Below, piece by piece: positions 11,353 to 58,975 of a DNA stretch of 64,000 bases (its first letter is position 1; each line of letters opens with the position of its first letter). The stretch is from a virus. The DNA is taken from positions 1 through 64,000 of IMG/VR virus record IMGVR_UViG_3300013233_000109, one strand, 5' to 3'. Below the pieces are notes generated by a model. It saw only the letters and a program-made list of their open reading frames with translations. It ran no database searches and was not told the origin of the DNA. The translations under genes were made by a program, and so were the position numbers.

Positions 11353-11353
11353 C

Positions 11354-12227: not shown

Positions 12228-12249
12228 TATTGCAACTCCTGCGATTCTT

Positions 12250-17364: not shown

Positions 17365-18148
17365 TAATTACCTCGCTAAATTGTTTTATATTATAATGAA
17401 ATGGATACTGCTGATCTATTGTGTTAATTCTTATATTCGATCCACTAAATTCATAAATCATTTCTTTGGTCCAGTCTTCGGATTGCAGCCAATTTATTCG
17501 CCCTTTCATATGTATCAATGTTGGATAGCTAGTACTTGGTAATGTTACAGTATCTACTCCAATCGCTAGTGCTGCTAACGCATAAACTAAATCTGTAGTT
17601 CCGTGATCTGTTTTGCCTAGCTTTATTTTTGTCTGTACTTCTTCCCAATTCTCAAATAATTCACGTACTGTTGCGAAGAATTTTGCTGCGGTTTTGCTAA
17701 ATCTCCAGTACGTTATAGCATTGTATACGTCCGGTAATTTGTTGGCGTCAAATATTTTTCTATAATGGCGCTCGGTTGTTAGCTCATTTTTGTAATTACG
17801 TGCGCCTATTGTTAATACTACATCGCGTTTCCGTAACATTGTCCACCAGTGATCTATACTATGCGGAATTATCATATCTGCTTCGATTTTTATTGTCTCG
17901 CGAAATGGACTTGCTGCGAATACTTGCCAGTCATTTGCGTACGGATTTTCAGTGTTAACTGGATAGGGGAATTTTATTATGTAATCAAAAATAGTATTAT
18001 CTATGGTATCATTTGTTAGTATTGCTATTTTTGCAGCAGGGGTGTGAATCTTTATACTTCTTGCACACGCTATCGCACAATTAACGTAATCTACATCCGC
18101 TGTATTACTTGCTACTATTAAATATCCTTGCTCAGCTAATATCGGCAT
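17333..18148 (-). CDS. GT-A-type glycosyltransferase, 271 aa
   Basis: N-terminal strand YLIVASNTADVDYVNCA, then AKIAILTND, and a metal-site segment ETIKIEADMIIP (about residues 83-94), the layout of GT-A enzymes related to the cyanophage and LPS-type transferases. A W-R-F motif and a TTDLVYALAALAIGVD helix follow. No signal peptide, so cytoplasmic. It overlaps both neighbours. It is similar in design to the next gene upstream, so the two may add successive sugars (inference). Confidence 0.8.
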   Translation of the reverse strand: MPILAEQGYLIVASNTADVDYVNCAIACARSIKIHTPAAKIAILTNDTIDNTIFDYIIKFPYPVNTENPYANDWQVFAASPFRETIKIEADMIIPHSIDHWWTMLRKRDVVLTIGARNYKNELTTERHYRKIFDANKLPDVYNAITYWRFSKTAAKFFATVRELFENWEEVQTKIKLGKTDHGTTDLVYALAALAIGVDTVTLPSTSYPTLIHMKGRINWLQSEDWTKEMIYEFSGSNIRINTIDQQYPFHYNIKQFSEVINAQYNKHNIR

Positions 18149-18956
18149 TTATCATATCCTCCATTGCGAATTTATTTAAACAGTGAAAATCTGTTGTTAC
18201 TATCGATCGCATTAGTCGCATTTTGTTCCTGGACCATTTTTCATATGTTATCTCAAATTCAGTGTCAGATAGCTGTGTGGCGTATATGTCGTTTAATGCT
18301 GTAGGCAAATGCCAGGGGATGGTTGGTATTGCATCTAGTCTGTGACCGTGCATTATTGATTGCGCTATACTTACTGCATAATCATTCCTGTACGGTAGTG
18401 AATTAAATTTATATATATTACTGTAGAATTTATAATTATCTTTTATCATTGTTATTGTATCGAACATTTCTTTTGCGAAGTCACTTTTGCGGAAATATAA
18501 TATAGTTGCCCAGTAATGTGGCATTTTTGTTTGGCCAAATGTTTGATACGCCGATAAACTATTTTTACTGGCTACATCGTATACATTCCTGTGACAGAGA
18601 AAATCATGTGGATTATTAAATAATTTGTTTAGCTGATCTGAATTAACAATGTAATCACTGTCGATTACTACTGTTTCGTCATATGGGCTAATGTCGTATG
18701 CTTGGTATCGGTTTACATTGTACCAGTGATCTATTTTATCTTTAGTGTGTATATCGAAATTACGCTTAGATTTTGTCTCTGCTTCGGCTATTACTATATT
18801 ATGTTTAATATTTTTATCAGCTAGTGAGTTTGTATCTGTTACTATTGTTGTCGGCTTATCTAAGAAGCGCGAAATGCGATCTGCTACCCACACTGCTTGC
18901 GATAAATAATCTAATGTTTTATTATTAAATGCGAATATTAAAAAGCCTTGGCTCAT
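18132..18956 (-). CDS. GT-A-type glycosyltransferase, 274 aa
   Basis: The start at ATG 18956 overlaps the TGA of the upstream gene (ATGA); an upstream start at 18992 is less likely. N-terminal strand GFLIFAFNN, then TTIVTDTN, and a clear DxD in ETVVIDSDYIV (about residue 100). RNDYAVSIAQSIMHG near residue 190 is the acceptor-side helix seen in related enzymes. First catalytic gene of the long operon. The sugar specificity cannot be read from the sequence. Confidence 0.82.
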   Translation of the reverse strand: MSQGFLIFAFNNKTLDYLSQAVWVADRISRFLDKPTTIVTDTNSLADKNIKHNIVIAEAETKSKRNFDIHTKDKIDHWYNVNRYQAYDISPYDETVVIDSDYIVNSDQLNKLFNNPHDFLCHRNVYDVASKNSLSAYQTFGQTKMPHYWATILYFRKSDFAKEMFDTITMIKDNYKFYSNIYKFNSLPYRNDYAVSIAQSIMHGHRLDAIPTIPWHLPTALNDIYATQLSDTEFEITYEKWSRNKMRLMRSIVTTDFHCLNKFAMEDMINADIS

Positions 18957-19249
18957 CGTTGCTTCTGTAATGTTTCGTATTCTGCGTGCCATGCGTTCAA
19001 TTGTTCTTGATACCGCATTGCTGCTTCGGTGTGTAATTCGCTTGGTTTAACTTTACATGGATTTCCGTACTCGTCGAGTAATACAATTTCTCTTGCTGTT
19101 CCGTACACTAGCGTTAATGCTAATATTTCAGGGCCGGCTTTCCACATGCCCTCAAATGCTGTAAATAGCATTTTTGCTTCGTATTTTTCCGTAAGTGTTT
19201 GCTTTGCTGCTTCGTGGTCGAATCGTGCTTTTATTGTGTCTGCTATCAT
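18953..19249 (-). CDS. Conserved hypothetical protein, first gene of the long operon
   Basis: 98 aa from ATG 19249. A start at 19297 would lie inside the -35 box of the operon promoter, so it is excluded. The sequence (KARFDHEAAKQTLTEKYEAK, then LLDEYGNPCKVKPSEL) is of a type I recognise as conserved in cyanophages, with no assigned function. The 5' leader carries an AAGAGGTG element about 11 bases before the ATG. Confidence 0.82.
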   Translation of the reverse strand: MIADTIKARFDHEAAKQTLTEKYEAKMLFTAFEGMWKAGPEILALTLVYGTAREIVLLDEYGNPCKVKPSELHTEAAMRYQEQLNAWHAEYETLQKQR

Positions 19250-19273
19250 ATTAGTATTTACACCTCTTTTACT

Positions 19274-19302
19274 AGTATAACATAATTTGATACGCAAGTC
19301 AA
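19274..19302 (-). promoter_or_regulatory. Sigma70-type promoter of the 16.5-kb radical SAM/glycosyltransferase operon
   Basis: On the - strand: TTGACT (19297-19302), exactly 17 bases, then TATACT (19274-19279). It is followed by a short leader and the ATG at 19249. No other comparable promoter is seen downstream, where genes overlap almost without a break to 2753. It should be read by host RNA polymerase with its housekeeping sigma, that is, early in infection. Confidence 0.85.
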
Positions 19303-25085: not shown

Positions 25086-28000
25086 TTAAATACCTTCATT
25101 TTTAATGAATAATGCTTGCTCCGAGAACTGATCTTCTAGTCTCGGTATTTTAACATTAAAGTCGTACGGTTCAGCTCCGAACCCGACTTCCTCTGGTGGT
25201 GCTAAGTTAATAACAATATTATTAATTATAACAATATTATCATTAAATGGATCAAAACCTAAATTATTAATTTCATACCAGCTATTTGCATAACTTATAA
25301 TATCTATGTACATAATGTCGGTTGGTGTAAACACACCTGGGTCACCAATAAATGATAACTCTATATCCGGTAATAAATTAGCTCTATTAAACCCACTAGC
25401 TGCTGGATCTTTGACATCCAATGGCTTAGTGCCTACTGCTTTAGTTTGAAATCTATTAAATTTTGCATCATTTAACTTAATTGATAATTTGCCTGTTCTA
25501 CCATTAAATCCAGGTAGTACTAAGCTGTATCGTACTTTACCACGCGGAGCTGGCTCTTGTATGAAATCATTTACTGTAAATTCTAGTGCTGTTAATACTG
25601 TAGTTTTTACTGGCACTTGTGTTTCTCTATTAGCATTATAAATTAGACTACCTGCTAAATGGCCGGTGTCGCTTGCTCCGGGTACCGCCTCGGCATCTGC
25701 CGTTAGCAATACGTTATCGGCTGTAATACTAGTGTCATTTACTGTAAATTGTTCTGGCGTTGTGATCATTGTTCCGGTGCCGGCTGTTCCTCTGCGTAAA
25801 CCATATAATGTAGTAGGCGTTTTATTTAAATATGTAATACGTTCGCCGTTTATTGTTATTATTCCGAATAATCCTTGAGATGGTACTGGCGTAAATAAAT
25901 TACTAGTGTCATCTACGTGTATCACCTCATCGCTAGCATACAACGGTGATGATAGTGTTGCTTCTACTGTTGGATGTAGCGTGTAATGCGCATAATTGCC
26001 TCGCATATCTTGGAAATATCTAAAATCTACGGTCCTGGCATCTGGCGCTTCTATGAAATTACCTTGGTCGATTGTCCCGAATCGTGTACGCACTGTTAAT
26101 AATAATGTGTCAAACATTTGCCCGGGCACTAATTCTTCCGGAGCGTGTGAACTGTACGTGTCTACAAATCCGCCACCTACGACGTCAACGTCCGATGGGC
26201 GAGTGCCGTTATATTCATCTAGCGAGTCTGAATATCCAACTATTGAATACTCATTATTTGTATACACTGTGTTATCTAATATATTTTGCCCGGGGAATTT
26301 ACTAGCATATTCGGCATCTAATATATTCTCGTTAAATGTTGGGAATCCAAGATTATCTAATGTTACGTTATCGTACTTACCGAAATCATACGGTGTTAAA
26401 TCGTAGCCATCTATTGTATTAAAATCTACACCGTTTATTTGAACTCCTGGGTATTCTAGTCCATTTATTAGCATCGGTATGTTCAAACCTTTATCGTTAG
26501 CTCCTGGCTCGTAAAATCCCTGTGTTCTGTCCATTCCGCTTAACTCTTCTATATCAACTAACGTATGTTGCGATGGTATAAATTTTTCATCATTTATATT
26601 TAATAAGCCCGAGTTTACTGTGTATACACTACTGTTATATTTTACTAAAATTTCATCGGATATATTATCAAAGGCGATGGTATCAAACGGAGCCGTGTCG
26701 TATCCTGTTGATATTTGCGAACTACTATTAATTCTAGCTAATCTATCTGCACTGGCATTTTCTTCTATTTTTATATAATCAGCTTCGTTTAGTGGCCATG
26801 TATATACATTCGTATTGTATTCATACCTATCATACTTAATGGTTGTTGTAAATGATCTAACTAAATCATTTTTCGTTACTATTCTAGCTGTTGCGTCTAA
26901 TCCATTACCTCCCTCGATTAAAACAGTTGGTGTAGTTGTAAATCCGCTGCCCTGGGTTTCGATGTAAATACTTGTTACTAATCCATCGCTATCTATTCTT
27001 GCTTTAGCAACAGGCAGAATGTTAGCGTCACCAGTGATGGTTATTGTGGGTATTTCTGTATAATTAATGCCAGGGTTAATTAGTTCTATACTATCTATAA
27101 TAATCTGCCTGTTATTAAACCATTGATTATGCGGGTATGCTGACCATATGCTATCGCTTGCTAGTGTATTGCTATCTTCTGTTAATAATAATGCTCCGTC
27201 GTCTAATACTGGACTAATAAATTTGCTGTATGGAGCACTGTATATTGACGGACAATCGAAATCTGTAATTACATTGTCATTTAAATCTGTTGCTGTGTAC
27301 GATAATTTAAAGTCTTTGATTTTTGTATGATACGGTTTTACTTCGTTTATATAATCTATTACATAATCTTGGTTGTCTTTGTTAAACACAGCATACGGCA
27401 ATAATTCGCGTACTTTGTGATTAACATCTATTAGACTAGTTTTATTTAACCAGTGCACATTTTCTTGCTCTGACAGGATATAATTGAATACTGATATTAA
27501 CAATATATTACGCTCAATTTTTAAATCATTAGTTAGTATTTCTTCGTTAATTGATTTTAATATATTACGCAATTCGCTAAGAGGTTCTTCGTCGAACTTC
27601 TGTACTTCGTATACTTCAAAATCGTACCCATAACGTAATAGGCTGTAATCGTACAAGGCCGCACTAAATTCTAGTGTGCCATCTTGGACTGCTACTCTGG
27701 TCCAGCTATTGTTGCTATATTGATATAATTCCCATTTACTGGCACTGTTGTCTAATACTTTAACAAATGTTACTACATTAAAATCAACCGAGTCTAGCTC
27801 ATTGATTGTTTGTACAGTTAATTGTATTTTCTCAGATTTGGAGCTGGCTGTTTTATACCAATCTACTGTTTTCCAGAATCGCGTAGTATCAAAACTCTGC
27901 ACTCTTGTTAACTTTAATATTTTTGCGGGGGTTACCTCGTGTATTGTCCAGAATCCGCCCACTGATTCATTTGATACTACTAAGTATTTGAACCCTGCTG

Positions 28001-31000
28001 GTACTAACGCTAAATTCTGAAATTCGAGTTCTGTGAGATCTTGAACTTTTATGTCATATGTAGTAGGTGATGGCAATGGCTCCTCGGTCTTTAAAAGAGG
28101 GTACACTTTGTTTTCAGCTGCTGGCGTTGTTATTAGTATCGCATTCACTTTTAAGATGTAATTTTTTAACGCTGCTAGTCTGTCTTTAAACATTGTCTGG
28201 CGTGGGCGGAAATTGACACCGTAACGCTCGCTAGCATTTAATTTAATATCCGGCACTTTGTTACCTTGCGTGTCGGCACCTACAAAACTATCTAATAGCT
28301 TTTTGTATAATCCTGCTGGTAAGAAATCTGTCTTGTGATTTTCTCTAATTAATTCGTATTCTTGGAAAATATTTGCGTCATTTTTAACATTGTCGAATTC
28401 TACGTGAAGCACTGTCTCATTATCTATGTACTTTGATTTTGTATTATATAATCCTACTGTGTTTTTATTAATTATTGCTGCATACGCGATGCCAGACGAT
28501 GATGGGCTCTTAATATACGATGCTATTGCTGATGGGCTTAACGTTTTTTCGCTATTAGTTAGAATCGTGTTGCCGTTTTTTACCCAATAATAATACGTTG
28601 TCTCTATTACAGTATCTTTAATTTCACTAAGTGATACAAAATTTGTAGTATCTAACACATCTCCGGCAAATAGGGTAGGTGGCACTTTACTCTCAGTCCA
28701 TTGATATACATCTACTGAGCTTCCTTTAAACACTGATCCCCATAGATTTGCTGCTACATTAACATCCTTTTGGAAGTAATCTACAAATCTAACAGTACTG
28801 ACATCCCACCAGATTTGACCTACATTCGCTTTGCTCCACAATATGCCCGAGGTTGCTGATCCGTATACTGCTGGATCAGTTGGCGTAATATAATCTAAGT
28901 TTTGTTGGGCAGCTCCTAATATCTTGCCGTTCAATGGGTCAATATAATCTAATCTGCTTAGTATGTCTTCTGACGAGTTGCTGTAGAGATACATAGCATT
29001 AATCATATTAATATCAGTTTGCGGTTGTTGTGATCTAATTGATTCCCAGTTACGTGCTTGGCTGCTAGCACTATATAATGTAATATGGCTGCCCGGTGTA
29101 CTTACTATGATGTCGCCGTCTACTAACGTAGCTTTATTACCGTACAGCGAATTTGACGTTACTGTTGTATTGTATACTTGTTGTCCAAATGCTAACTTGC
29201 CAGCACTAAATTCAGTAACGTCTTGTAATATATCGTAGGTGTAAATTGCTCCGGATTTTTCAAAAGCATCGACTAATCTCATTGATTTACCGTCAAATGT
29301 AGTACTTCTATTATCAATTGGCGCCAGCTTCTGTGTAGTTCCTGCGCTGCTAACTAGTAAATGATTTTTATTAATATCAATTTCTACAATTTTGCCAAAA
29401 TTAGCATTAATTTCGCTAATAGGCGGACGGATGATCTGTGCTGCGTCGTATACTGTAAAGTTCAAATCGCTAAATGCGAACCCAATACCTGGCAACACAT
29501 CTAGCTTACTAGCAAGCGATGTTAATAACTTATTCTTTAATTCGATCATTATCTGATTATTAAATAATCGAGATGTTACATTAGGTATGTTTTTAGCATT
29601 GATATTATCTACTAGATCACTTAATGTTGTTCCTACAAATACATCAATATTATTAATACGGATAGTATCTGTTGCTGTTAGTGATGTGGTAAAATTTGAT
29701 ATTATATACCCGTTCATTCTAGCAGTGTTTATATAGCGTGTTACTGTACCTTCGTTTATGTTCTGTGTACTGTCTGTTGGTGAGCCGATATATAACGAGC
29801 ACTGTGAATTACATAAACTTACACTTTCACCAAATGATGAACCTGTTGTTCCTACGATTGTAGCAATTTCAACGTAATCATTAATGTCGACTTCTAAGAA
29901 ATCGCCTACTACCGGATTAGCTAATGTTATTACATTTGCTGCTGCTATATAATCTTCTGTGACTATATTATTAATATGAATTGCTCCGTTGCTGTAATTT
30001 CGCAAGGTGGTGTACGATGGCATATTAGCTTCGACTACAAAACGTTCAACTACTCTACTATACACGCGGACGGTATCGGTGTTGTCACCTAATACAATCT
30101 GACTAGCATTATCTGATACATCGATTGCTGTTACATTTGTTAACGGGATGGTGCCTTTATTTTCGTATTTCAGTATATTATTTAAATTGTATCCTGTTAC
30201 TTCGATTCCGTTACTAACAAAGAACCACCTATTGTCTGCGCTAAGTGCTAGTATCTCACCATTAGCATAGGGGATAGTTTCTACCAATGAATAATCAATA
30301 GCTTTTTCTGATTCTACGCGAGCTATTATTTGTATTTCTGTACTAGTTAATACAATCGCAGTAGTGTCGTTAAATTTAATATCGATTGCTGCTATTGCAA
30401 ATTGTTCCTTTAATACTAACCCTGTAGCTTTTTTAGTATAAGCATACACCGTGGTGTCATCGGCTACAAAGGCTCCGGTGGTGCCAGTACCTTGTGCTAC
30501 TATTTTTCCGTAATTATTATTAATAACAGGGGGTTGTGTTGTTTTACTTTCTGCATATAAATCTTGCTTAGCATATACGTGTGATAAATTATCGTTAGTG
30601 TCTACCCATACTTTATCTGTAGAGAATAATTTGTTATCTAAATCTGAATTAGCAATATCGCTCGGAGTGCTTACTCTACTAGATGTTAATAGGAAAATAT
30701 TACCAGTATTTTCTATTTCGATTTGCTCAGCATCTAATGAGCCGGCTATTACTATCTTATAATCACTTAATATAGATGTTATGTTGTGAGCTCCATTTAT
30801 TTGCGGGTCAACGTACTTAATTATTATTTTATCATCTGTTACTAAAGTGTGTGGCGAATTAACGTCTATTGTAATCGTTCCATCTAGATTATCACTTACT
30901 CTGATTATTTCAGGGTTAATGTGTTTAGTGCGATAAACATTCCAGCTATAATCATTGTCTTTTGCTACCCATATAGTAGATCCGTCTACAATGTCATTAA

Positions 31001-34000
31001 CTTGCGATGTTATCTCAGACAAATCATTTAAACTAAAGACTGAAAATGATACTTCGTTTTCTGTCACAAATCCGGCTGTTGGTAACTGGATGTCTTCGTT
31101 GTTGCCTTTGCGCATTGGATATATGTTGTTAGTGCTATGTTTAACACTTTGATTAAATATATCACCGACTAATATTTGCTGAGAAGCAGCACTAATTCCA
31201 TTGGTTATTTGCACTGTTGACGGATTGTCGTTTAACTGGGTTTCGTCTAGCTGTACCTCGACATAGCCCCTGCTATTTGTTGCTCCGTATTCGGCACGTT
31301 TAACTGCCCAGTTTTCAAATATTTCGTAATCTGTTACTGCGTTGTTTATTGTTGTATTGCGGAATAAATCTAAACTACTTGCGGTTCCTTTTGATTTAAC
31401 AATATCTTGATAAACATTAACTTGCGATATATCGCTTAAATCTAAGCTAGTTAGGTATTCACGTGGGCGGAATCCAATTAACCCTAGTGAGAACAAATCG
31501 TTGTCTTTTTCTAAATTAGCTGTTTTGCTATTATAGAACTGCAGCATCTCATTAGACTTAGTTGCTAAATTTGGCAGGGCACCAGTGGCTACGTTAGTGT
31601 AATCTATTTTAGCCCAGCTGCTTAAATTAAATAATTCTGATGGTGATACTTTTTCTAAAGCAGCATATACACTGTTTTTATAGCGTATCATCTCACCTTT
31701 GTTATAACTACTTGTAGATGCCCATTCTGCTACATTATCATCATTTAACAGAAATCCCTGGGCATCTACTTGGCCGTTCCAATCTGTACTAGTGAATCCT
31801 ACTAATTTAACTCGTGTTTGTCTAACCCCGGTGACCGGATCGTATATCAGATCACTAAAGATACTAGTGTTATCGAGTACTAATATATGCTCAAAACTAG
31901 TTAAATTAAAGTTTAAATAACTAATGATTTTGTCATTAATAGTTGATATTTTAAAGTTATTTTCAATTCTATCAACTACATAATCGCTTGGTAATAATAA
32001 TTGTCTGTTTTGATCTTGTGGCTGCTCATTTACTGCCATATTTAATAAGCTATCTACTACAGTAAACTCGCGTTCAAATTCAAGTGCTTCGGCTGCTGGA
32101 TTTAAATTAATTATAGCACTATCGCCCCATCCTTGGTCGCTCCAGTATGTGAACTCCGACGCCATTGATGTCCAATTTACTTCGACGTTATTCTCTGTAT
32201 TCTCAAAACGTAGCCCGCGCTCACTTAGGTAAGCTCCATAACTTATTATGAAATCTACCACAGCATGTTTGTTTGTAAATACATAACCATACGGTATATA
32301 CGCAATACGATTACTAAATGTTTGTGGTATACGGATAGTAGTAGCATCGCGTGACGTATTGCCTACTACTATCTTTTTAAACTTTCCACCGCTAAGTGAC
32401 TGTCTAATTTTAAAGTATGGATCTGTGTTGCTGTTGCCGTATACCGCATATCCGTCTTGTACTTTTTGTACTGTTATAGCCGAATATACTACTTCGTCAA
32501 ATGGCTGATTTTTATGTACTAATAAATTGTAACTCTCATCTGGCAGCAATAACGAATTATTTAAACTATCTGGGCTACTTCTGTCAGTGAATACTTTTAA
32601 ATTGTCTTTGTCTGTGAACGCTGCCATTCTGTAACATAAGCTAACATCTAAATTAGCTAAAACGTTAGATAGTTCGGCTGAGCTATTATAACCGTAGAAT
32701 TTGTTATAATCGATAATCCAGTTTACATAACTATTTTTATTTGTGGTACTAGCAATCTCTAATTCTTTAACATTTAATCTGCTTCTGCCATCTAATAGAT
32801 ACTGATTGTGCTCTTCACTGAATTTATATCGATCTCTATCTGCGTTTAAACTAAAATATTGTGCTGGTTTTGTTAGCGATAATAAACGTTGAACCGCAAA
32901 TGGCCACGCACTACTTTTTCTGAATGCACTTTCTGCAGGACTTTGATCACCTACTTTCCAAGATTGCTGAAAATCAAACGCACTATGTGCTGCTACTACA
33001 TTCTCTAGCGGGGATAATAATCTACCTTCGCTATCAACTGGTATGATTTCTAATAATTGCGGGCGGATGTATTTTTCGGCAATATACGGAGCTACCGGAT
33101 CTTTAATTAATCCTAGTGCTAAATCGTCCCATAGTACTAAGTTACCGCTTGTATACGGTGCAGGGCCATATTGCTGCTGCCACCATATCGGCTCTAGCGA
33201 TAATCCTAGCATCTCCCACGGGCGTGTATGCGGGGAATCAGTGTCGTATAAATGATTGTAAATACCGCGCCAGTTTCCCTTTAATATGTTTCCGTCTAAT
33301 TTGTTTACTGATTTGCTGTAATTTTTAGTTTTGTCGTTGGTACTATCAAATGCTTGCGTTACATAATCTATTTTATTCCAGCCTAACCAGGATACTAGCG
33401 ATGGCGTTAATATTTCTGTTATTTCCGAGTCTGTATAATCAGTGGTGCGGAATTGTCCTGGGTTTATATCGTTGAACGATAGTGGTGTATCGCTGTTAAC
33501 TTTGATATTATTAAAAATACGTTTCTCAAATTCTAATAATACATCATCGCGTATGTCATCGAATGCCACTGTGATACTACCGTCGTGTCCTCTAATGACA
33601 TTAACTGGTGTTACATAAGTGTCATCTAGATATTTCACTGGTTTATATTTTTGGTACATTCCCATTTTAGTAGGCGTACTTGGAATGCCTGATGCTACAG
33701 TGCTATTATACTCCATGAATAATATAACGTCGTCAACTACTAAATCTACTAAAAATGTTACGTTGGGGCTGTCTGCACTTACTGTGTAGTCAATATCTTT
33801 GAGCAATATAGTGTCATTTAGATAAACTAATAATGCTTTATTATTTGCTTGTGTAAAATCAAATATATTTACTGTGTTGAATGTTTCCGAACTGATTGCA
33901 GTCACTAAGTGCTGTGTGGCTTCAAAATCTGTGCCGCTTGGAATCATGTCGCTATTATAAAACGCGCTTGTTGTGCTTTTTCCTACGTTGATTTCAGTTA

Positions 34001-37000
34001 ATGCTTGCTCTAGTATTTCTGCCGATGATAATTCAAAGACATCGTGCTTGGCTACCCAGTCCACTAATTGATTTTTAAACTTTTCATAGGCGCGTGAACT
34101 GAATTTTATAGAATCGTAAAAATTATATTCATTTTTGCGTATAAATGTTGATGCTAATGCTACTGGTGCCGATTGCTGAATTATATTTAATCCATATGAC
34201 GGAACTTGACCTAGGTCTCGCAAATTATTGGCACCGTTGATATTACCACTAAAATCTAATATGTTTTGTGCTAACGTAATATAGTGATTCCGTATTGTTC
34301 CTAGTGTTAATTCACTTGTATTTCCGTTAAAAACGTTCTGCGACAGATTCTGCGGCACTTGGTAATAACCGTTGCTGCTAGCGGTGTTGCTTATTATTAA
34401 TACTTCGACAGGTGTGCCGATTGCAATATTATTGTTTAACGTTATTAATGTTGAATCTGTTATAGATAATGTGTAGTTATCTGTTGTAACAAATTGATTA
34501 TCGGCAATCACTTTAATTGCAGGGGTCTTTAAATCAATGGTCGGAGTAATGTCCACTACTAGTGGCTTTCCTTCGTAAATATAATTAAATATTTGCGGGA
34601 TATGTGCTATTTCAGCACTTCTGACCCACCCGGTATGCGATGTGTAGTCAGTTATTGTTTGGTATGTTCTAGCAAAGTGCTTGCTTAAATTATCGCTAGT
34701 GCTTGCAGTAACACTAACATAATCAAAACTATCAGTATATAAATCATTTTTAAATGTGATATCGCCTAGGTTACCGATATTTAAATACTTTAGTGGAAAC
34801 CCAAGTACTGTATCATTTTGGCCGGCACCTATAGCATAACTAAATAATTTTGTGCCGATAAATGTCGATGCTGTGTACCGATCTCTATTAGCTAAGCTAA
34901 TACCGTCAGTGTCGAATAAATCGAATAATGGTGGCTGATTTACTTTCGTTTTTTCCTGTGATGGTAACCACGTGCTGTTAGCAAATACATATGATTTGCC
35001 TATTAACGTAGTACCGGAGGTTGTTAATATGTTATGTCCTTCGCTAGTGGCGCTGTCATCTGCTAGCGTTAATACTATTGTTTCATTTCCGTCAGCATTT
35101 AAATCCTCATATGACACTACGAATATTTTGTCTCGGACTGTGGAATCTGTGTCTGCTGCAAAAATAATGCGTGTATTATTTGCTAATTTATAGCCATCTA
35201 CAAAATACCCGGGATTTGTTGCTAATCCATTTATATTGCTTAGCGCATCTGTTTCTGTAAAATCTATTACGTCGACTGGTGTTTTGCCTTGTGTGCCGTG
35301 ATTAAATAGTTTTAAGTTGGCTTCAAATTCTAAGATAGGACGGTTGGCTCTAAAATTATTGTCTGTTACTACTACAGTATTATTATATTCTGCTGTTTTT
35401 GTTATAACATCAATGTGCGTCCAACGATTAGAACGTGACCACGCATTTCTGTCATTGCTAGCTTTGTTTATTGTTATATAATCAGATGTTAATGGCGCAT
35501 CTAAACTGCCGTTATATCCTATTGTATCAAACGGTGATGCTTCGTAAGTATCTAGTATACTATCCGTAAATGGTTCTGGTGTGATGAATTCCGACACTGG
35601 TAATAATTTTATTGCGGTTCCTACACCTTCGATGTAATATTCTACGTCTTGATATTCTTGTGGACTGGTTTGTCCTCTGAATTGTACTTTTAATCCGTTA
35701 GTAAATACAACGCCGTTTGCTGATGTGTATACTTTTTTACCTAGTATCTCGTCAATGAATAATACTGCAGACTCATCTTGATCTACTATATTAATCTTTC
35801 CAAACATTCCTGGATTTGATGAATCTTGATAATATAATGTATCTAGTGTTGCTGTTAATACAGGCACACGTTCGAAGAAGCCTTGGCTGTTTTTAAAGAA
35901 ATCAACATTGCTGTATGTGTCGCCGTGTGTTATTGTTACTTTTTCTAATGTGTTAACTGTTTTAAACGGTAGTAAATCTACGTATGGATTTTCGCCGTTG
36001 ATATCGTATACTAAATTAATCTTAAATATTTGATATCTATCATTCAGATTGTTTATTTCGCTAAATGTTTCAAATGTATTTGAATCGTAACTATCATTAT
36101 TAAAGCGTGTTTGATTTACCCAGCCGGTGTTTGTTCCTAATCCGGTGGTATTATCTAAAAATATTATTGTTTTTCCTTGTAAATCACCTATGTTATTGAT
36201 ACCGTTAGTCAATGATGATACTAAAACATTATTAATGTCGTTATATTTTAAATCTGATGCTAGATCAACTGTTCCTATGTATGTTAATGTTCTGTAAAAT
36301 TCTTGCGAGGTAACGTCTGGTACGTGAAATTCTAATATGCCAGCTGGTGTTCCGTTATTAATAACACCGTCTATGTCACGTGACGTGATGTTACTAGCGT
36401 ATGATGTGCTGCCAGATGTGCCTGGCTCGGTTTGAATATATAGATTTCCCGTTGATGTAAATGTATAATTTCCACTGCGAACTAATGTTATTGTTGGGTT
36501 TTCGCCTGCTATGTCTGCAATGTTATACGTGTTTGATAATGTGTTTTGATTAAAATTAAATTCATCACTTAAAAATATGTCTGTGGCTCCGACATCAACA
36601 CTATCCGGTCCTTGCGGCAGCCAGTAATACTGTGAGTAATTTACAAACTTGTCAAAATCAACAAATGGTGACCAACTGTATGTTTCGCTGCTAAATAGTC
36701 TGTCGTGATTTTGTACATCGGCACCTTTTGTTTCTAATCCGTCAATTAACCCTGGGTATGTTAATACATCCTGTGTGTTATTGTTGCTGTCGTTAAATAT
36801 AATTCCAGGTTCAAGTTGATAATTGGCTCTTGTAACGTCATTTTCTACTATATAAGTATCGGTGCTTGATACACTAGGTCCTGTGCGCTTACCTACAAAT
36901 CCTTGTGTGCGTTTAATCTTTGGTTCTTGTATTAATTGATCGAACGTTGATCCGAGAAACTTTTTATTAGTACTAGTTTGAAAGATCTCTGGAAGAAAAT

Positions 37001-37025
37001 CTACACTGCGTATTCTATCAGCCAT
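25086..37025 (-). CDS. Giant virion structural protein, 3979 aa
   Basis: An uninterrupted ORF of 11,940 bases. The N-terminus (MADRIRSVDFLPEIFQ, QGFVGKRTG, WSPFVDFDKFVNYSQYYWLPQGPDS) matches a giant virion protein I recognise from cyanomyoviruses, annotated there only as structural or baseplate-related. The rest is beta-rich, with many Asp, Asn, Ser and Thr. The segment WSRSNRWTHIDVI and others look like repeated carbohydrate-binding or beta-sandwich modules, and the last 400 residues resemble a cyanophage-type end. It lies directly next to gp6 (stop/start adjacent), so a peripheral baseplate or tail-fibre network role is likely. No catalytic motif was found. Confidence 0.88.
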   Translation of the reverse strand: MADRIRSVDFLPEIFQTSTNKKFLGSTFDQLIQEPKIKRTQGFVGKRTGPSVSSTDTYIVENDVTRANYQLEPGIIFNDSNNNTQDVLTYPGLIDGLETKGADVQNHDRLFSSETYSWSPFVDFDKFVNYSQYYWLPQGPDSVDVGATDIFLSDEFNFNQNTLSNTYNIADIAGENPTITLVRSGNYTFTSTGNLYIQTEPGTSGSTSYASNITSRDIDGVINNGTPAGILEFHVPDVTSQEFYRTLTYIGTVDLASDLKYNDINNVLVSSLTNGINNIGDLQGKTIIFLDNTTGLGTNTGWVNQTRFNNDSYDSNTFETFSEINNLNDRYQIFKINLVYDINGENPYVDLLPFKTVNTLEKVTITHGDTYSNVDFFKNSQGFFERVPVLTATLDTLYYQDSSNPGMFGKINIVDQDESAVLFIDEILGKKVYTSANGVVFTNGLKVQFRGQTSPQEYQDVEYYIEGVGTAIKLLPVSEFITPEPFTDSILDTYEASPFDTIGYNGSLDAPLTSDYITINKASNDRNAWSRSNRWTHIDVITKTAEYNNTVVVTDNNFRANRPILEFEANLKLFNHGTQGKTPVDVIDFTETDALSNINGLATNPGYFVDGYKLANNTRIIFAADTDSTVRDKIFVVSYEDLNADGNETIVLTLADDSATSEGHNILTTSGTTLIGKSYVFANSTWLPSQEKTKVNQPPLFDLFDTDGISLANRDRYTASTFIGTKLFSYAIGAGQNDTVLGFPLKYLNIGNLGDITFKNDLYTDSFDYVSVTASTSDNLSKHFARTYQTITDYTSHTGWVRSAEIAHIPQIFNYIYEGKPLVVDITPTIDLKTPAIKVIADNQFVTTDNYTLSITDSTLITLNNNIAIGTPVEVLIISNTASSNGYYQVPQNLSQNVFNGNTSELTLGTIRNHYITLAQNILDFSGNINGANNLRDLGQVPSYGLNIIQQSAPVALASTFIRKNEYNFYDSIKFSSRAYEKFKNQLVDWVAKHDVFELSSAEILEQALTEINVGKSTTSAFYNSDMIPSGTDFEATQHLVTAISSETFNTVNIFDFTQANNKALLVYLNDTILLKDIDYTVSADSPNVTFLVDLVVDDVILFMEYNSTVASGIPSTPTKMGMYQKYKPVKYLDDTYVTPVNVIRGHDGSITVAFDDIRDDVLLEFEKRIFNNIKVNSDTPLSFNDINPGQFRTTDYTDSEITEILTPSLVSWLGWNKIDYVTQAFDSTNDKTKNYSKSVNKLDGNILKGNWRGIYNHLYDTDSPHTRPWEMLGLSLEPIWWQQQYGPAPYTSGNLVLWDDLALGLIKDPVAPYIAEKYIRPQLLEIIPVDSEGRLLSPLENVVAAHSAFDFQQSWKVGDQSPAESAFRKSSAWPFAVQRLLSLTKPAQYFSLNADRDRYKFSEEHNQYLLDGRSRLNVKELEIASTTNKNSYVNWIIDYNKFYGYNSSAELSNVLANLDVSLCYRMAAFTDKDNLKVFTDRSSPDSLNNSLLLPDESYNLLVHKNQPFDEVVYSAITVQKVQDGYAVYGNSNTDPYFKIRQSLSGGKFKKIVVGNTSRDATTIRIPQTFSNRIAYIPYGYVFTNKHAVVDFIISYGAYLSERGLRFENTENNVEVNWTSMASEFTYWSDQGWGDSAIINLNPAAEALEFEREFTVVDSLLNMAVNEQPQDQNRQLLLPSDYVVDRIENNFKISTINDKIISYLNFNLTSFEHILVLDNTSIFSDLIYDPVTGVRQTRVKLVGFTSTDWNGQVDAQGFLLNDDNVAEWASTSSYNKGEMIRYKNSVYAALEKVSPSELFNLSSWAKIDYTNVATGALPNLATKSNEMLQFYNSKTANLEKDNDLFSLGLIGFRPREYLTSLDLSDISQVNVYQDIVKSKGTASSLDLFRNTTINNAVTDYEIFENWAVKRAEYGATNSRGYVEVQLDETQLNDNPSTVQITNGISAASQQILVGDIFNQSVKHSTNNIYPMRKGNNEDIQLPTAGFVTENEVSFSVFSLNDLSEITSQVNDIVDGSTIWVAKDNDYSWNVYRTKHINPEIIRVSDNLDGTITIDVNSPHTLVTDDKIIIKYVDPQINGAHNITSILSDYKIVIAGSLDAEQIEIENTGNIFLLTSSRVSTPSDIANSDLDNKLFSTDKVWVDTNDNLSHVYAKQDLYAESKTTQPPVINNNYGKIVAQGTGTTGAFVADDTTVYAYTKKATGLVLKEQFAIAAIDIKFNDTTAIVLTSTEIQIIARVESEKAIDYSLVETIPYANGEILALSADNRWFFVSNGIEVTGYNLNNILKYENKGTIPLTNVTAIDVSDNASQIVLGDNTDTVRVYSRVVERFVVEANMPSYTTLRNYSNGAIHINNIVTEDYIAAANVITLANPVVGDFLEVDINDYVEIATIVGTTGSSFGESVSLCNSQCSLYIGSPTDSTQNINEGTVTRYINTARMNGYIISNFTTSLTATDTIRINNIDVFVGTTLSDLVDNINAKNIPNVTSRLFNNQIMIELKNKLLTSLASKLDVLPGIGFAFSDLNFTVYDAAQIIRPPISEINANFGKIVEIDINKNHLLVSSAGTTQKLAPIDNRSTTFDGKSMRLVDAFEKSGAIYTYDILQDVTEFSAGKLAFGQQVYNTTVTSNSLYGNKATLVDGDIIVSTPGSHITLYSASSQARNWESIRSQQPQTDINMINAMYLYSNSSEDILSRLDYIDPLNGKILGAAQQNLDYITPTDPAVYGSATSGILWSKANVGQIWWDVSTVRFVDYFQKDVNVAANLWGSVFKGSSVDVYQWTESKVPPTLFAGDVLDTTNFVSLSEIKDTVIETTYYYWVKNGNTILTNSEKTLSPSAIASYIKSPSSSGIAYAAIINKNTVGLYNTKSKYIDNETVLHVEFDNVKNDANIFQEYELIRENHKTDFLPAGLYKKLLDSFVGADTQGNKVPDIKLNASERYGVNFRPRQTMFKDRLAALKNYILKVNAILITTPAAENKVYPLLKTEEPLPSPTTYDIKVQDLTELEFQNLALVPAGFKYLVVSNESVGGFWTIHEVTPAKILKLTRVQSFDTTRFWKTVDWYKTASSKSEKIQLTVQTINELDSVDFNVVTFVKVLDNSASKWELYQYSNNSWTRVAVQDGTLEFSAALYDYSLLRYGYDFEVYEVQKFDEEPLSELRNILKSINEEILTNDLKIERNILLISVFNYILSEQENVHWLNKTSLIDVNHKVRELLPYAVFNKDNQDYVIDYINEVKPYHTKIKDFKLSYTATDLNDNVITDFDCPSIYSAPYSKFISPVLDDGALLLTEDSNTLASDSIWSAYPHNQWFNNRQIIIDSIELINPGINYTEIPTITITGDANILPVAKARIDSDGLVTSIYIETQGSGFTTTPTVLIEGGNGLDATARIVTKNDLVRSFTTTIKYDRYEYNTNVYTWPLNEADYIKIEENASADRLARINSSSQISTGYDTAPFDTIAFDNISDEILVKYNSSVYTVNSGLLNINDEKFIPSQHTLVDIEELSGMDRTQGFYEPGANDKGLNIPMLINGLEYPGVQINGVDFNTIDGYDLTPYDFGKYDNVTLDNLGFPTFNENILDAEYASKFPGQNILDNTVYTNNEYSIVGYSDSLDEYNGTRPSDVDVVGGGFVDTYSSHAPEELVPGQMFDTLLLTVRTRFGTIDQGNFIEAPDARTVDFRYFQDMRGNYAHYTLHPTVEATLSSPLYASDEVIHVDDTSNLFTPVPSQGLFGIITINGERITYLNKTPTTLYGLRRGTAGTGTMITTPEQFTVNDTSITADNVLLTADAEAVPGASDTGHLAGSLIYNANRETQVPVKTTVLTALEFTVNDFIQEPAPRGKVRYSLVLPGFNGRTGKLSIKLNDAKFNRFQTKAVGTKPLDVKDPAASGFNRANLLPDIELSFIGDPGVFTPTDIMYIDIISYANSWYEINNLGFDPFNDNIVIINNIVINLAPPEEVGFGAEPYDFNVKIPRLEDQFSEQALFIKNEGI

Positions 37026-47847: not shown

Positions 47848-47876
47848 TTGACCATTTTGCTGTACTATGCTATACT
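47848..47876 (+). promoter_or_regulatory. Sigma70-type promoter for the gp55 gene
   Basis: TTGACC (47848-47853), 17 bases, TATACT (47871-47876), then AGGAG at 47884-47888 and ATG at 47899. A host-read promoter before the late sigma gene fits the T4 scheme, where gp55 must be made before late genes can be transcribed. Confidence 0.85.
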
Positions 47877-47898: not shown

Positions 47899-49899
47899 AT
47901 GGCTAGAAAAAAGAAATATCTCAATAATTCGGATATGCTTAAAGAAATACATTTAAGTAAGATTTCATACTGTAAATTTGCCGATAAAGCAAATGATCAT
48001 CAAGAAGATTATATAGTAGAATCAGTAGAAGCAATTAATCAAACAGCGAATGTGCAAGTTTCAAAAGATGAAGCAGGTGAACCTATTATGGGCGATGTGC
48101 CGGTGATTGAGTTAGCTAGAGCTGCTAGAGCTAAGCGGTTAACTAAACTAGATATTCCTACACTAGTAGAGGATGTGTTAGATACTGATCTTGTTTTTCG
48201 TGTTATGACCACTGAACACATACCACTGGTTCCAAAGAAAAAAGCTAAAAAGAAACCAATCGTTAAGAAATCTGAAGTAGTAGCATTATTTGAGGATTTA
48301 ATGGATGAGGTGCCGCTAAAGGAAAATGAAGCTATAATTGACGACGAGGTGGTTGAGATGGTTCCTATGCGTTGTAAATTCCCACCGTTTTTCCACTATC
48401 GCATAGATGAGCAACAAAAACCTTATATTGTAGGGAAATCGCACTGGAAAGGTAACAGCATAGATGATGGGGAATTTTCTATGGAGCATGGGCAGACCAC
48501 CGGGAATCTTGCTATGATGTATATTAAATTATGCGAACGCTACGGCACTAGAAGTAACTGGCGCGGTTACTGCATTCCAGACAATGTCGAAGCACTAACA
48601 AAGAGAGGATGGTTATCCGAGAGCGACATTAATACAGATGATGAAATTTTATCGTACGATGACGGTAACATGCGGTGGAGTGCTATTAAATCTATTTTTA
48701 GAGATCATAATTACAACGGAATGATGCACAGTTTATCAAACATGCACATGGATTATCTTGCAACACCCGGTCACAAATTAGTAACCAATAGAGGTTTAGT
48801 GCCAATTGAATACGTTTTAGGGTCAGACCGTGTTATTTTAATGGGCGAAGCAGAGGAAACATCGTTTAGTCAGATTTATTCCGACGCATTTGTTGAATTA
48901 TTAGGATGGATTGTAACCGAAGGGACTTATCAATTGCCAAAAAAATCTATTCAAATTTACCAAAATGCTGGCCCTTACGCCGACAGAATTCGTAATTGTT
49001 TAATTAAATTAGATTATGGATTTAGCGAGGCACCGCACGGTAAAAGTGGTGTTAATATATGCTTCTCATTGAGAAGACCGGCTTCGGCAGAAATATTCAA
49101 AATATTGCCAGAAAAGAATTTAAACATGGACTTTATTACATCACTTACCCGTGACCAAAGATTTATACTAATCGATACTATGATTGACGGTGATGGGCAT
49201 CGCCTAAAAAATTATAAAGGATCGCCAAGTAGACGATATGATCAAAAATGCAGTACGCACATGGATTTATTTCAAGCGTTATGTTCGATTTCTGGCTACC
49301 GAACACACAACTACAAAAGACTTATGGAAAATTATAGTAAAACCGGGCACATTACTATGAATCGATTAACTTTTTTGTCTAAAAATAAAAATACTACAAA
49401 CGCAGGAAGTATTGACTTCAATGGTGGTTTAGTTAAAAACCGTGGTGTTAATATAAAAAATAAACATAATCACCCTAACAAACCTACTACTCCGTATCAA
49501 GGTACGGTTTGGTGTCCTGAGACTGAATATGGGTGCTTCTTAGCAAGACGCAATGGCAAGGTTTATTTAACCGGCAATACTTACAATGACGAAATGCAAG
49601 GACAAGCATTACTACAATTATCGCAAATTGGCTTGCAATTTAACGAATTAAAATCGCAGAATCCATTTGCATATTATACTGCCGCAGTGACGAATAGTTT
49701 TACCCGGGTGCTGAATATTGAGAAAAAGATGCAAATGATACGTGATGATATTTTAGAGGCAAATGGGCTATCGCCTAGCTGGACTAGACAATTTGAGAAT
49801 GATAAGACGGATACTAAGTATCTAGACGACCATGGTATCTTAAAGGAAGATGATTCGTGTGAGGCTGGTGACGTTAAGGTTATATACGAGGAGAAGTGA
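47899..49899 (+). CDS. gp55: Late-transcription sigma factor gp55, interrupted by an intein
   Basis: 666 aa precursor from ATG 47899 (AGGAG 10 bases upstream); removal of the 336-aa intein leaves about 330 aa. Extein part 1 (residues 1-224: MARKKKYLNNSDML, KFPPFFHYR, VGKSHWKG, LAMMYIKLCERYGTRSNWRGY) and part 2 (from residue 561: TYNDEMQGQALLQLSQIGL, NPFAYYTAAVTNSFTRVLN) together match the gp55-type sigma of marine T4-like phages, with the T4 gp55 pattern NF-x-GYT...EM...NPHAYITQA. The intein splits the conserved GY-T of sigma region 2, so the factor should be inactive until splicing. A charged Lys-rich linker lies near residues 135-150. gp55 directs RNA polymerase to TATAAATA late promoters, many of which are present here. 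Confidence 0.93.
   Translation: MARKKKYLNNSDMLKEIHLSKISYCKFADKANDHQEDYIVESVEAINQTANVQVSKDEAGEPIMGDVPVIELARAARAKRLTKLDIPTLVEDVLDTDLVFRVMTTEHIPLVPKKKAKKKPIVKKSEVVALFEDLMDEVPLKENEAIIDDEVVEMVPMRCKFPPFFHYRIDEQQKPYIVGKSHWKGNSIDDGEFSMEHGQTTGNLAMMYIKLCERYGTRSNWRGYCIPDNVEALTKRGWLSESDINTDDEILSYDDGNMRWSAIKSIFRDHNYNGMMHSLSNMHMDYLATPGHKLVTNRGLVPIEYVLGSDRVILMGEAEETSFSQIYSDAFVELLGWIVTEGTYQLPKKSIQIYQNAGPYADRIRNCLIKLDYGFSEAPHGKSGVNICFSLRRPASAEIFKILPEKNLNMDFITSLTRDQRFILIDTMIDGDGHRLKNYKGSPSRRYDQKCSTHMDLFQALCSISGYRTHNYKRLMENYSKTGHITMNRLTFLSKNKNTTNAGSIDFNGGLVKNRGVNIKNKHNHPNKPTTPYQGTVWCPETEYGCFLARRNGKVYLTGNTYNDEMQGQALLQLSQIGLQFNELKSQNPFAYYTAAVTNSFTRVLNIEKKMQMIRDDILEANGLSPSWTRQFENDKTDTKYLDDHGILKEDDSCEAGDVKVIYEEK
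48571..49578 (+). mobile_element. Intein with LAGLIDADG homing endonuclease inside gp55
   Basis: 336 residues, starting at Cys (TGC 48571) and ending at Asn (AAT 49576-49578), followed by Thr as first C-extein residue. Splicing blocks: A, CIPDNVEALTKRGW; B, DYLATPGHKLVTNRG with the TxxH motif; F, VWCPETEYGCFLARR; G, NGKVYLTGN. The residue before the last Asn is Gly instead of the usual His, which is known in functional inteins. Between B and F are two dodecapeptides of a LAGLIDADG endonuclease, LLGWIVTEG and LIDTMIDGDG, both with acidic catalytic residues, so homing may still be active. Removing it restores NWRGY-TYNDE, a continuous sigma motif, so the boundaries are well supported. Confidence 0.93.
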
Positions 49900-50771
49900 T
49901 GGTGAGGAGCGATTGTGTTCCTATTATATATCCGCCTGGGGCGTACGGGCATTATATATTTTGGATATTAAATAATTTTACAGAGCGCGGGAACGGAACT
50001 AATAAAACTGTACCATTTGACAAATACGGTGGGTCACACGGTCAAATTAAAAGCAAAACCTTTTGTAAAATAGAAGAGTTACAATTTAATAGCATGAAAA
50101 AACAAAGGTTTTTTCATGCTCATTGCGTGCAGCGGCAAGACATTCCAGTGCATGCTACACAATTTAATATTCTTAATAATTGGTTTAGTAAATGGATTAT
50201 TGTTGCAACAGATAAATGTATGTTAACAAGGTATAATAATCTGTTCGAAAAAGCAACAAACTGCGATATTGATGTATTTTCGTCGATTCTGCCAACTGTG
50301 ATGATAGATAGCACAATGTCAGTGTTTGAAGTCAGGGAAATGCTAAGTTATAAATTATTTTACCCGGTTCCTTGGATATCTAGCAACAACATACCTGGAT
50401 CTTTTGATTTAAAACCAGGCTATTTATTATATGATTTTGAAAATACATTAAATAAATTATGTGCTTATTTAGATACTACTATTTCAAGTGATGATATGCT
50501 GTTTTTGATTAAAACGCACAAAACATTCATGTCATTGCAGCAACATTTACATAAAGATGAAATAGTCGCTAAATTTTTAACAAATTTCAAAGAGGGTTTA
50601 GATGTGCCATTACCTGATAATTTAAGTATTATAGATGAGGCGTACATACAACATTATTTGCGAGATACATTACACTTAGAGATAAAATGCGATGGGCTAG
50701 ATGTATTTCCAAGCAGCACAACAAAATTAAGAGAGATAACATATCCAGCGGAGGATTTAATACGTGAGTAA
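49899..50771 (+). CDS. Hypothetical protein with a sulfotransferase-like N-terminus
   Basis: 290 aa from ATG 49899 (TGATG overlap with gp55, AGGAG 6 bases upstream). The N-terminus IIYPPGAYGHYIFWILNNF has a strand, a glycine loop and a helix as in sulfotransferase/P-loop proteins, but no full Walker A. It is similar in pattern to the 222-aa protein at 11559-12227. The remainder shows no recognised motif. It ends inside the GTG start of gp47. Function unknown. Confidence 0.72.
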   Translation: MVRSDCVPIIYPPGAYGHYIFWILNNFTERGNGTNKTVPFDKYGGSHGQIKSKTFCKIEELQFNSMKKQRFFHAHCVQRQDIPVHATQFNILNNWFSKWIIVATDKCMLTRYNNLFEKATNCDIDVFSSILPTVMIDSTMSVFEVREMLSYKLFYPVPWISSNNIPGSFDLKPGYLLYDFENTLNKLCAYLDTTISSDDMLFLIKTHKTFMSLQQHLHKDEIVAKFLTNFKEGLDVPLPDNLSIIDEAYIQHYLRDTLHLEIKCDGLDVFPSSTTKLREITYPAEDLIRE

Positions 50772-56722: not shown

Positions 56723-58975
56723 GTGGATGATATAAACGACCAAGCTGAAGAATTCATCGAGATGATGACTGAAATGTTGCGCGATCCGCAAGTATCAGCA
56801 GCTGAATTAAATAGCAAATTCAGAGAATTATCATCTGGCTCCGGGAATACTAGCAGCAATCTTCAAAAGTTAGGCGATGCTGCTGACGAGTTAACAGGCT
56901 CGATGTCGCAAACATTGAAAGCATTAGGATCCGGTAATACAGAATTCACACAGCTAAATGGTCTAGTAGAGTCGGTTGGATCAGCACTTTCTGGGCTGCT
57001 AGGAAAAATACCACTAGTAGGAGTGGCACTCGAAGCAATGGGCGAAGGTGCCACTGAAGCATTTACTTATGCTATAGAACAAGCACAAATGGGCTATTCA
57101 TCATTTATTGAATTAAGTAAAGCTGGTGTAATCGGAGCCGAAGGTGTAACAGGATTAGGTCACGCAGCCGGGCAAACTGGCATACCGCTAGCAACATTAA
57201 CAAAACTATTAGGCGAAAACACAAAAACAATGGCAATGTTTGGCGGATCTGCTTTAGCAGGTGCCAAACATTTCACTGATACTATGACAGTAATGCGCAC
57301 AGGAGTAGAAACTGAATTGCGTAACCTAGGTTTCTCAACTGAAGAAATCGGCGAAACTATAATAGAATTTAAGAAACAACAAATAATGCTTGGACTACGC
57401 AGTAGTATGTCTGACAGAGAAACCGCTTTAGCAGCCAAAGAACTAGGCATAGAATTAGACTTAGTTGCTAAGTTAACAGGTGTTAGCAGAAAAGAGCAGC
57501 TGGGCATGCGAGAAGCAGCATTATCCGAAGCGAGATTTAACTCATCTTTGCAACTAAAGTACACAAAAAAGCAAGGAGACAACCTCCAGGCGTTTAACGC
57601 TAAATTACTAAGTTTAGGATTAGATGGTGTAGCTAATGGTATGCGAGATTTAACATCGGGATTTATTACAACCGAGGCGTCTCAGCAATTATTCATATCA
57701 TCAAGTGGCAAAGCAGCAGATATAATTAACAGTGTTGCCAAAGGATCGATATCATTAAATAAAGGAATAGAGCAGTTACGATTAGCCACTAAAGGAACCT
57801 ACCAAGCTCAGCTTAATTTATCACTAGCATCAGGTGACCAAGCAGGTGTATTTATTAAACAAATCGAAGCATCAAAATTGCAAGGTGCCTCGTCAACTAA
57901 ATTAGCCGAAATAGACGCAAAAATAGCACAAGATAAACAAAAAAATTCAAAAACAACAGATAAAAATACTAAGAAATTAAACTCGTCTGTAGTTAACCTT
58001 GAAACTACAGCAGCAAGAATAAATGAATTATTTCTAACCACAGCAGCTGGACCTATTGCGATCAAATCATTTAGCGACGGTCTTGACTTACTAACCGCTA
58101 AGATTAGCGATATTCTCGGTATTGAAAATAATACGCGAACACAAATCGAACAACATGCAGCTATGGCATCATACGGAGTTGATCGGGTTAGGGGCGAAGA
58201 TATTCAAAGTACAAGTAGTATTACTAATGAACAACAGCAAATTGTAAACGCATCCAATAGTTTAAAATCATCAATTGAGTTAATGACGCAACAACTAGCA
58301 GATGAAAAAGAAAAAACTAACGCAAATTCTAGTGTCATTAAAGGATTAACAGAAGGGATAGAACAACAGCGACAGACATTGCTGCAAGTTAGTGTTAAAA
58401 AAGCTAACTTCGAAGAAACAAGTAAAAAATCAGCCTACGAAATATTTAGTAAATTTGCAGCCGAAAATAGAAAAAACGATATATTTCATTCAACTGAAAT
58501 GAAATCGTTTATCAGCGAAGCAGGGCTGTCAGGCTCATACGGCCCTGAGAAACAAAAAATAATGGAATCCATAATACAAAAATCAATGGATCGCGGAGAA
58601 GAAGGTATATGGACTAAAAATAAAAGTTGGCTTGAGAAGAATATCAACAATGATTATAATATGCCTAGTAGTGTAATCAAAGCACTGCAAGGAGTCAAGG
58701 CACTAGGTGTATCAGCGCCAAAGTCAGTTATAGAGAAGCAAGAAAAACACAAAATTGAAATAATCAAAGATGCCACTAAAGCAGCTACACAAGCAACACA
58801 AGCAAATAACACGCAACCTAACGATATGCTAGCAAAAGAAATGAAAGAAGCTAATAAAGAATTGATATCAAATGGCAAGCAAAATATAACAATGTTATCT
58901 ACGCTAGATAGAACCGTGAGAGACTTAGTATTAGCAACTAACAAGCAAACACAGCTAATTGGCAATATCAGTTAA
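56723..58975 (+). CDS. Tail tape measure protein (gp29-like)
   Basis: 750 aa, GTG start with AGGGA 8 bases upstream. Mostly helical, with a glycine- and alanine-rich hydrophobic stretch at about 70-125 (LVESVGSALSGLLGKIPLVG, ALEAMGEGATEAF) and long coiled coils in the second half, as in tape measure proteins that fill the tail tube and set its length. T4 gp29 has 590 aa; the longer form here would predict a longer tail if spacing per residue is the same. The neighbours gp26 and gp51-like support this call. Confidence 0.8.
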   Translation: MDDINDQAEEFIEMMTEMLRDPQVSAAELNSKFRELSSGSGNTSSNLQKLGDAADELTGSMSQTLKALGSGNTEFTQLNGLVESVGSALSGLLGKIPLVGVALEAMGEGATEAFTYAIEQAQMGYSSFIELSKAGVIGAEGVTGLGHAAGQTGIPLATLTKLLGENTKTMAMFGGSALAGAKHFTDTMTVMRTGVETELRNLGFSTEEIGETIIEFKKQQIMLGLRSSMSDRETALAAKELGIELDLVAKLTGVSRKEQLGMREAALSEARFNSSLQLKYTKKQGDNLQAFNAKLLSLGLDGVANGMRDLTSGFITTEASQQLFISSSGKAADIINSVAKGSISLNKGIEQLRLATKGTYQAQLNLSLASGDQAGVFIKQIEASKLQGASSTKLAEIDAKIAQDKQKNSKTTDKNTKKLNSSVVNLETTAARINELFLTTAAGPIAIKSFSDGLDLLTAKISDILGIENNTRTQIEQHAAMASYGVDRVRGEDIQSTSSITNEQQQIVNASNSLKSSIELMTQQLADEKEKTNANSSVIKGLTEGIEQQRQTLLQVSVKKANFEETSKKSAYEIFSKFAAENRKNDIFHSTEMKSFISEAGLSGSYGPEKQKIMESIIQKSMDRGEEGIWTKNKSWLEKNINNDYNMPSSVIKALQGVKALGVSAPKSVIEKQEKHKIEIIKDATKAATQATQANNTQPNDMLAKEMKEANKELISNGKQNITMLSTLDRTVRDLVLATNKQTQLIGNIS

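Follow-up and report, generated by a model that had tools for sequence, protein, structure and literature searches.

A class 1 LAGLIDADG intein in the phage late sigma factor gene gp55

The gp55 gene and its surroundings

The window, by which we mean the whole stretch of 64,000 nucleotides analysed (positions 1 to 64,000 of IMG/VR record IMGVR_UViG_3300013233_000109), carries on its plus strand the gene of the phage late sigma factor gp55 with an in-frame intein (47899..49899). The open reading frame starts with the ATG at 47899, stops at 49897-49899, and encodes a precursor of 666 aa, with a spliced product of 330 aa. Two PHROG models of late sigma factors, phrog_12791 (E=1.2e-66 over the full protein) and phrog_234 (E=1.2e-13), matched the window gp55 in its two halves and passed over the middle. 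Positions 3-189 of phrog_12791 fell in the N-extein (47899..48570, plus strand), which has 224 aa and ends in TRSNWRGY. Positions 190-282 fell in the C-extein (49579..49896, plus strand), which has 106 aa and starts with the +1 Thr (TYNDEM). The intein, an allele of the family called gp55-a here, occupies 48571..49578 on the same strand and has 336 aa; alignment with 61 other alleles left the coordinates of the first-pass annotation unchanged to the base.

Late genes of T4 need gp55, and gp55 is the single gate to late expression in T4-like phages. Downstream of the window gp55 lie a gp47-like and then a gp46-like gene, an order shared with Synechococcus phage B23. Between gp55 and gp47 there is an open reading frame of 291 aa (49896-50771, plus strand), which overlaps the gp55 stop and had no Pfam or PHROG match; in phage B23 a 156-bp open reading frame takes this place. 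A consensus scan found a promoter-like sequence, TTGACC-17-TATACT with a TG preceding the second hexamer, at 47848..47876 (plus strand), 22 bases ahead of the ATG of gp55. The number of sites of this type in the region was not above chance in the same scan, and TATAAATA late-promoter motifs were not enriched in the window.

The 72.9-kb record, which may be incomplete, contained no second copy of gp55. It also gave no other intein or LAGLIDADG match with family models that also miss the gp55 intein itself. Elsewhere in the window, positions 2753-19297 (minus strand) hold a cluster of a Nol-like carbamoyltransferase gene, two radical SAM genes, and genes without an assigned function, which is perhaps a set for sugar or surface modification. 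Furthermore, a single open reading frame of 3979 aa lies in the structural region (25086-37025, minus strand), and one of 750 aa with no PHROG match lies directly before the portal gene (56723-58975, plus strand).

Insertion site, splicing residues and predicted fold

The insertion had been described as splitting a conserved GY-T motif, and this was borne out by the nearest homologues. Among the 80 nearest IMG/VR gp55 genes, 78 read straight through the site as RSNWRGY/TYN[DE]EM (the slash marks the insertion point), which also supplied the empty sites for which a survey of related phages had been suggested. The empty junction sequence is AACTGGCGCGGTTAC followed directly by ACTTACAATGACGAA. 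As had been noted, removal of the segment left a continuous gp55, and the spliced protein of 330 aa aligned to intein-less homologues with no gap at the junction. The joining was precise at the DNA level as well, for example when L031 (with the intein) was compared with L032, and L088 with L046. Class 1 inteins are expected to interrupt their gene in frame and to have homologues that lack the insert, as is the case here.

Alignment to T4 gp55, which has been solved in 7D7C and 7D7D, placed the insertion between the equivalents of Y63 and T64. In T4, gp55 works with RNA polymerase to direct late transcription; its L54 and R57 belong to the promoter pockets, and E70, D74, and E77 of helix H3 hold the RNA polymerase clamp helices (PMC7892883). 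The L54/R57 equivalents adjoin the insertion site before it and the H3 equivalent adjoins it after it. As a sigma factor, the unspliced precursor of 666 aa is probably inactive: the intein would place 336 residues between the helix of the -10 pocket and the one that binds to the RNA polymerase clamp.

The intein begins with Cys1 (TGC at 48571) and ends with Asn336 (AAT at 49576-49578), directly followed by Thr. The N-terminal splicing half of the Hint fold comprises residues 1-99 (48571..48867, plus strand), with Cys1 in block A and T65-P-G-H68 in block B. The C-terminal half with blocks F and G comprises residues 313-336, VWCPETEYGCFLARRNGKVYLTGN (49507..49578, plus strand). Blocks A, B, F, and G and two LAGLIDADG motifs had been noted from the single sequence, and the 62-allele alignment showed that their catalytic residues are conserved. 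C1, T65, P66, H68, W314, C315, and N336 were invariant (62/62), so that the class 1 nucleophile at position 1, the block B TxxH, and the C-terminal Asn occur in every allele; the +1 residue was T in 49 and S in 12 of the 61 alleles counted.

A penultimate His in block G is usual, not obligatory, for class 1 inteins. In the gp55-a alleles this position was Gly (60/62) or Ser (2/62), and this departure from the canonical block G counts against reading the segment as an intein. Nevertheless, several inteins without the penultimate His are active, among them one of a phage with Gly at this position (PMC5050341), and the penultimate Gly is compatible with fast splicing.

Class 3 inteins have no position-1 nucleophile and possess a WCT triplet, with W at B12, C at F4, and T at G5. 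The gp55-a inteins share two of these residues, Cys at F4 (C315, 62/62) and Thr at G5 (59/62), and class 3 was considered for this reason. It was ruled out by Cys1 in all alleles and by B12, which was L, F, I, M, or V and never W.

A check with Hint and LAGLIDADG_3 models had been suggested, and its outcome was divided. The window intein alone had no Pfam match, to Hint or to any other model, and no PDB match in single-sequence searches, so that a family alignment and a structure were needed. Among the family members, Intein_splicing matched 21/62 alleles and LAGLIDADG_3 matched 28/62; TIGR01445, the NCBIfam model of N-terminal splicing, and intein-containing models matched members as well. 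In addition, the family profile retrieved solved inteins. The AF2 model of the window intein was confident (mean pLDDT 93.6, pTM 0.91) and showed the Hint fold. Its best solved matches in Foldseek were TliVMA, PhoVMA, PI-SceI, and PI-PfuI (best E=3.2e-13), followed by free LAGLIDADG enzymes.

The LAGLIDADG homing endonuclease domain covers residues 100-300 with approximate borders (48868..49470, plus strand), and its predicted structure was I-DmoI-like in Foldseek. Motif 1 (residues 110-118, LLGWIVTEG; 48898..48924, plus strand) contains the acidic E117, and motif 2 (residues 202-209, DTMIDGDG; 49174..49197, plus strand) contains the acidic D208. E117 and D208 each varied once in the 62 alleles, E117 to another acidic residue (E/D in 62/62; D at the second position in 61/62). 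Taken together, the segment at 48571-49578 is a class 1 intein bearing a LAGLIDADG endonuclease within gp55.

Distribution and mobility of the gp55 inteins

A search of IMG/VR with the single window intein found no relatives. With a four-allele alignment as the query, 121 related stretches were obtained, and 80 of the 121 were inspected. Every complete intein among these 80 interrupted gp55 at one and the same position, with Tyr before it and Thr or Ser after it. The occupied right-hand junction was scanned separately, and the 59 contig stretches found all matched the intein family (59/59). The junction-pattern scans, in which 59 stretches had an occupied and at least 120 an empty junction, give no estimate of frequency.

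Overall, at least 62 distinct full-length alleles were collected, every one in gp55 at the same site, including those of the window, of phage B23, and of a contig recorded as part of a Prevotella genome. This contig (L173, DMYZ01000238.1) belongs to a metagenome-assembled genome and is probably phage DNA that was binned along. The intein is not unique to the window phage, which was ruled out by the relatives in IMG/VR and by the junction scan. Similarly, the rarity implied in the first-pass annotation was mistaken, since the same gp55 site is occupied in so many alleles, that of a cultured phage in GenBank among them. Among annotated phages the gp55-a intein was seen in B23 only. The gp55 proteins that carry it were as low as 13-20% identical, and the inteins of those pairs were about 42-49% identical.

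Five of the 59 stretches contained mini-inteins of 151-152 aa at the gp55-a site, with three distinct sequences: L310 (2050-2505, minus strand), L334 (1098-1553), and L341 (2928-3383) share the first, L344 (8431-8883, minus strand) has the second, and L304 (1-447) has the third. L304 is cut by the contig end, which leaves two complete types. The mini-inteins are without exactly the endonuclease (model positions 98-297). They kept positions 1-97 and retained TPGH, WC, and TGN, as well as Cys1 where the start was present. The gp55 proteins of the two complete types were about 90% identical to gp55 with a full-length intein. Moreover, a second LAGLIDADG intein, gp55-b, which is unrelated to gp55-a, was found in the same gp55 genes of three phage types (L151:5150-6124; L156:5135-6085; L161:5126-6097). 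It lies at about the equivalent of T4 N104/F105. Its kin occur on other phage contigs, within genes that resemble those of class II ribonucleotide reductase and primase, gene identities that were read from the flanks.

Compared sixth by sixth, the DNA of the L124 and L128 inteins (4001-5008) was 98-100% identical throughout. For gp55 on either side and the DNA downstream, identities were 0.61-0.93 per segment, with gp55 mostly at 61-77%, and the DNA further downstream was 69% identical. Synonymous divergence (dS) was 0.01-0.04 in the intein versus saturated in the gp55 exteins. L031/L088 and L094/L101 showed the same pattern in weaker form. The reverse pattern was also present: the gp55s of L094/L119 and of L103/L104 were 90-94% identical, while their inteins were only 52-62% identical. 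Judged by these comparisons, the gp55-a intein has recently been transferred between phages without the surrounding gene. This recent mobility is a result for the family and not for the window copy, because the closest relative of the window allele was about 58% identical and no near-identical copy was found.

On the gp55 tree, which has few columns and many unresolved forks, the presence or absence of the intein changed at least 15 times, and at least 6 of the changes were forced by well-supported branches. The dN/dS values were obtained by the Nei-Gojobori method, and pairs with very few changes were ignored. In the informative close pairs, dN/dS was roughly 0.03-0.17 for the Hint part and 0.06-0.39 for the endonuclease, and by this measure both intein domains are under purifying selection.

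Explanations and comparison with known systems

The window gp55 very probably contains a mobile class 1 intein whose LAGLIDADG homing endonuclease serves its homing into intein-less gp55 genes and which excises itself to leave gp55 of 330 aa. The insertion, the empty sites, the conserved catalytic residues, the predicted fold, and the recent intein-only transfer within the family were established by comparing sequences and models. The gene would be translated into the precursor, in which the intein should fold as one Hint domain interrupted by the endonuclease. Excision would proceed by an acyl shift at Cys1, transfer to the +1 Thr, and cyclisation of Asn336, with Gly rather than His before it. 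From what is known of the intein family, splicing and DNA cutting would be expected in the window gp55, as would inactivity of its precursor. The intein most likely leaves soon after translation, and gp55 would become active after splicing and then work normally. The freed endonuclease would cut gp55 genes that lack the intein in co-infecting relatives, and the intein would be copied in during repair. Two things would favour the gp55 site, namely that its sequence hardly varies and that loss has to be precise; an essential site of this kind would guarantee targets and punish imprecise loss.

The first-pass annotation had proposed that splicing is a switch or timer for late genes, where an inactive precursor waits for a cue such as redox, temperature, or time and late transcription is delayed. 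The insertion adjoins the RNA polymerase-binding helix and the precursor is therefore probably inactive, which speaks for a switch. Mini-inteins that have lost the endonuclease survive in two divergent forms, and neither has lost a splicing residue. In addition, Cys1 and the block F Cys315 are invariant in the 62 alleles, which makes a redox disulfide conceivable, and work on mycobacteriophages argues that the penultimate residues tune the splicing rate (PMC5050341). However, the Bethlehem RDF intein, the one tested phage intein with a penultimate Gly, spliced essentially completely, and a change back to His made it slower (PMC5050341). Some close relatives carry the gp55 intein and others coexist without it, and the recent intein-only transfer and a turnover faster than that of gp55 fit a parasite. 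The patchy presence, the intein-only transfer, and the purifying selection match the prediction of homing and look like ordinary homing; the proposal of a switch or timer was not supported and is unlikely. Regulation rather than simple parasitism is possible but unsupported, and a general role is made less likely by the patchy presence and the recent transfers. A narrower version, in which some phages, notably those with gp55 mini-inteins, keep splicing as a control and a cue such as reduction of a Cys1-Cys(F4) disulfide frees stored gp55, is slightly less likely still.

A decayed intein that had lost splicing, with the gene coding for a broken or slow gp55, might be suspected from the Gly in place of the penultimate His and from a window copy too divergent for the Pfam Hint model. 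Yet Gly is the norm of the family, the other splicing residues are all intact, and the family dN/dS is well below 1. Moreover, T4 requires gp55 for its late genes, and no second copy was found in the record, which may be incomplete; decay is very improbable. The segment is also in frame and common to 62 alleles, as would be expected of an ordinary accessory domain in one gp55 subfamily. Such a domain, which had been named as grounds for giving up the intein reading, is contradicted by empty sites in near neighbours and by the independent transfer of the intein. The invariant splicing residues and a fold that is that of inteins with an endonuclease leave it hardly any credence.

Elements of this kind are well known, and gp55 appears to be new as an intein host gene. 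The first-pass annotation knew of no described example; likewise, full-text searches, outside subscription papers and InBase, found no published intein in gp55 or a late sigma factor. A transcription factor is thus added to the proteins that harbour inteins, and the insertion lies next to its contact with RNA polymerase. The gp55 family is also a natural experiment on the intein life cycle, with empty, full-length, mini, and double states and fresh transfers.

The closest named counterpart is the gp55 intein of Synechococcus phage B23 (MN695335, b23_0289; Kyanoviridae). It lies at the same site, has 340 aa, and is about 45% identical over its full length, with the same block residues and two LAGLIDADG motifs. 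In contrast, the B23 gp55 is a far more divergent, short cyanophage gp55, and its +1 residue is Ser. The gene is annotated 'hypothetical protein' and 'phage T4-like gp55', and the genome announcement is silent on an intein. Since B23 is cultured and carries the intein, a delay of the phage late programme by the intein is now testable.

The mycobacteriophage RDF (metallophosphoesterase) inteins, such as that of Bethlehem gp51, are class 1 with a penultimate Gly like gp55-a (PMC5050341). The Bethlehem gp51 intein splices, and its endonuclease is toxic when active (Kelley et al. 2016, PMC5050341). Metallophosphoesterase inteins of related mycobacteriophages can be distantly aligned to the gp55 intein over the full length (about 23%), but their host gene is a different one. 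Outside gp55, the nearest named relatives interrupt the portal gene of Caudovirales GX15bay and that of Gordonia phage Belphegor (27-29%). Phage inteins in portal, TerL, and ribonucleotide reductase genes have the same architecture, whereas their hosts are packaging or nucleotide enzymes and not a transcription factor. Like the gp55 intein, TliVMA, PhoVMA, PI-SceI, and PI-PfuI consist of a Hint domain interrupted by a LAGLIDADG endonuclease, but they are only 9-13% identical to it and reside in cellular host genes.
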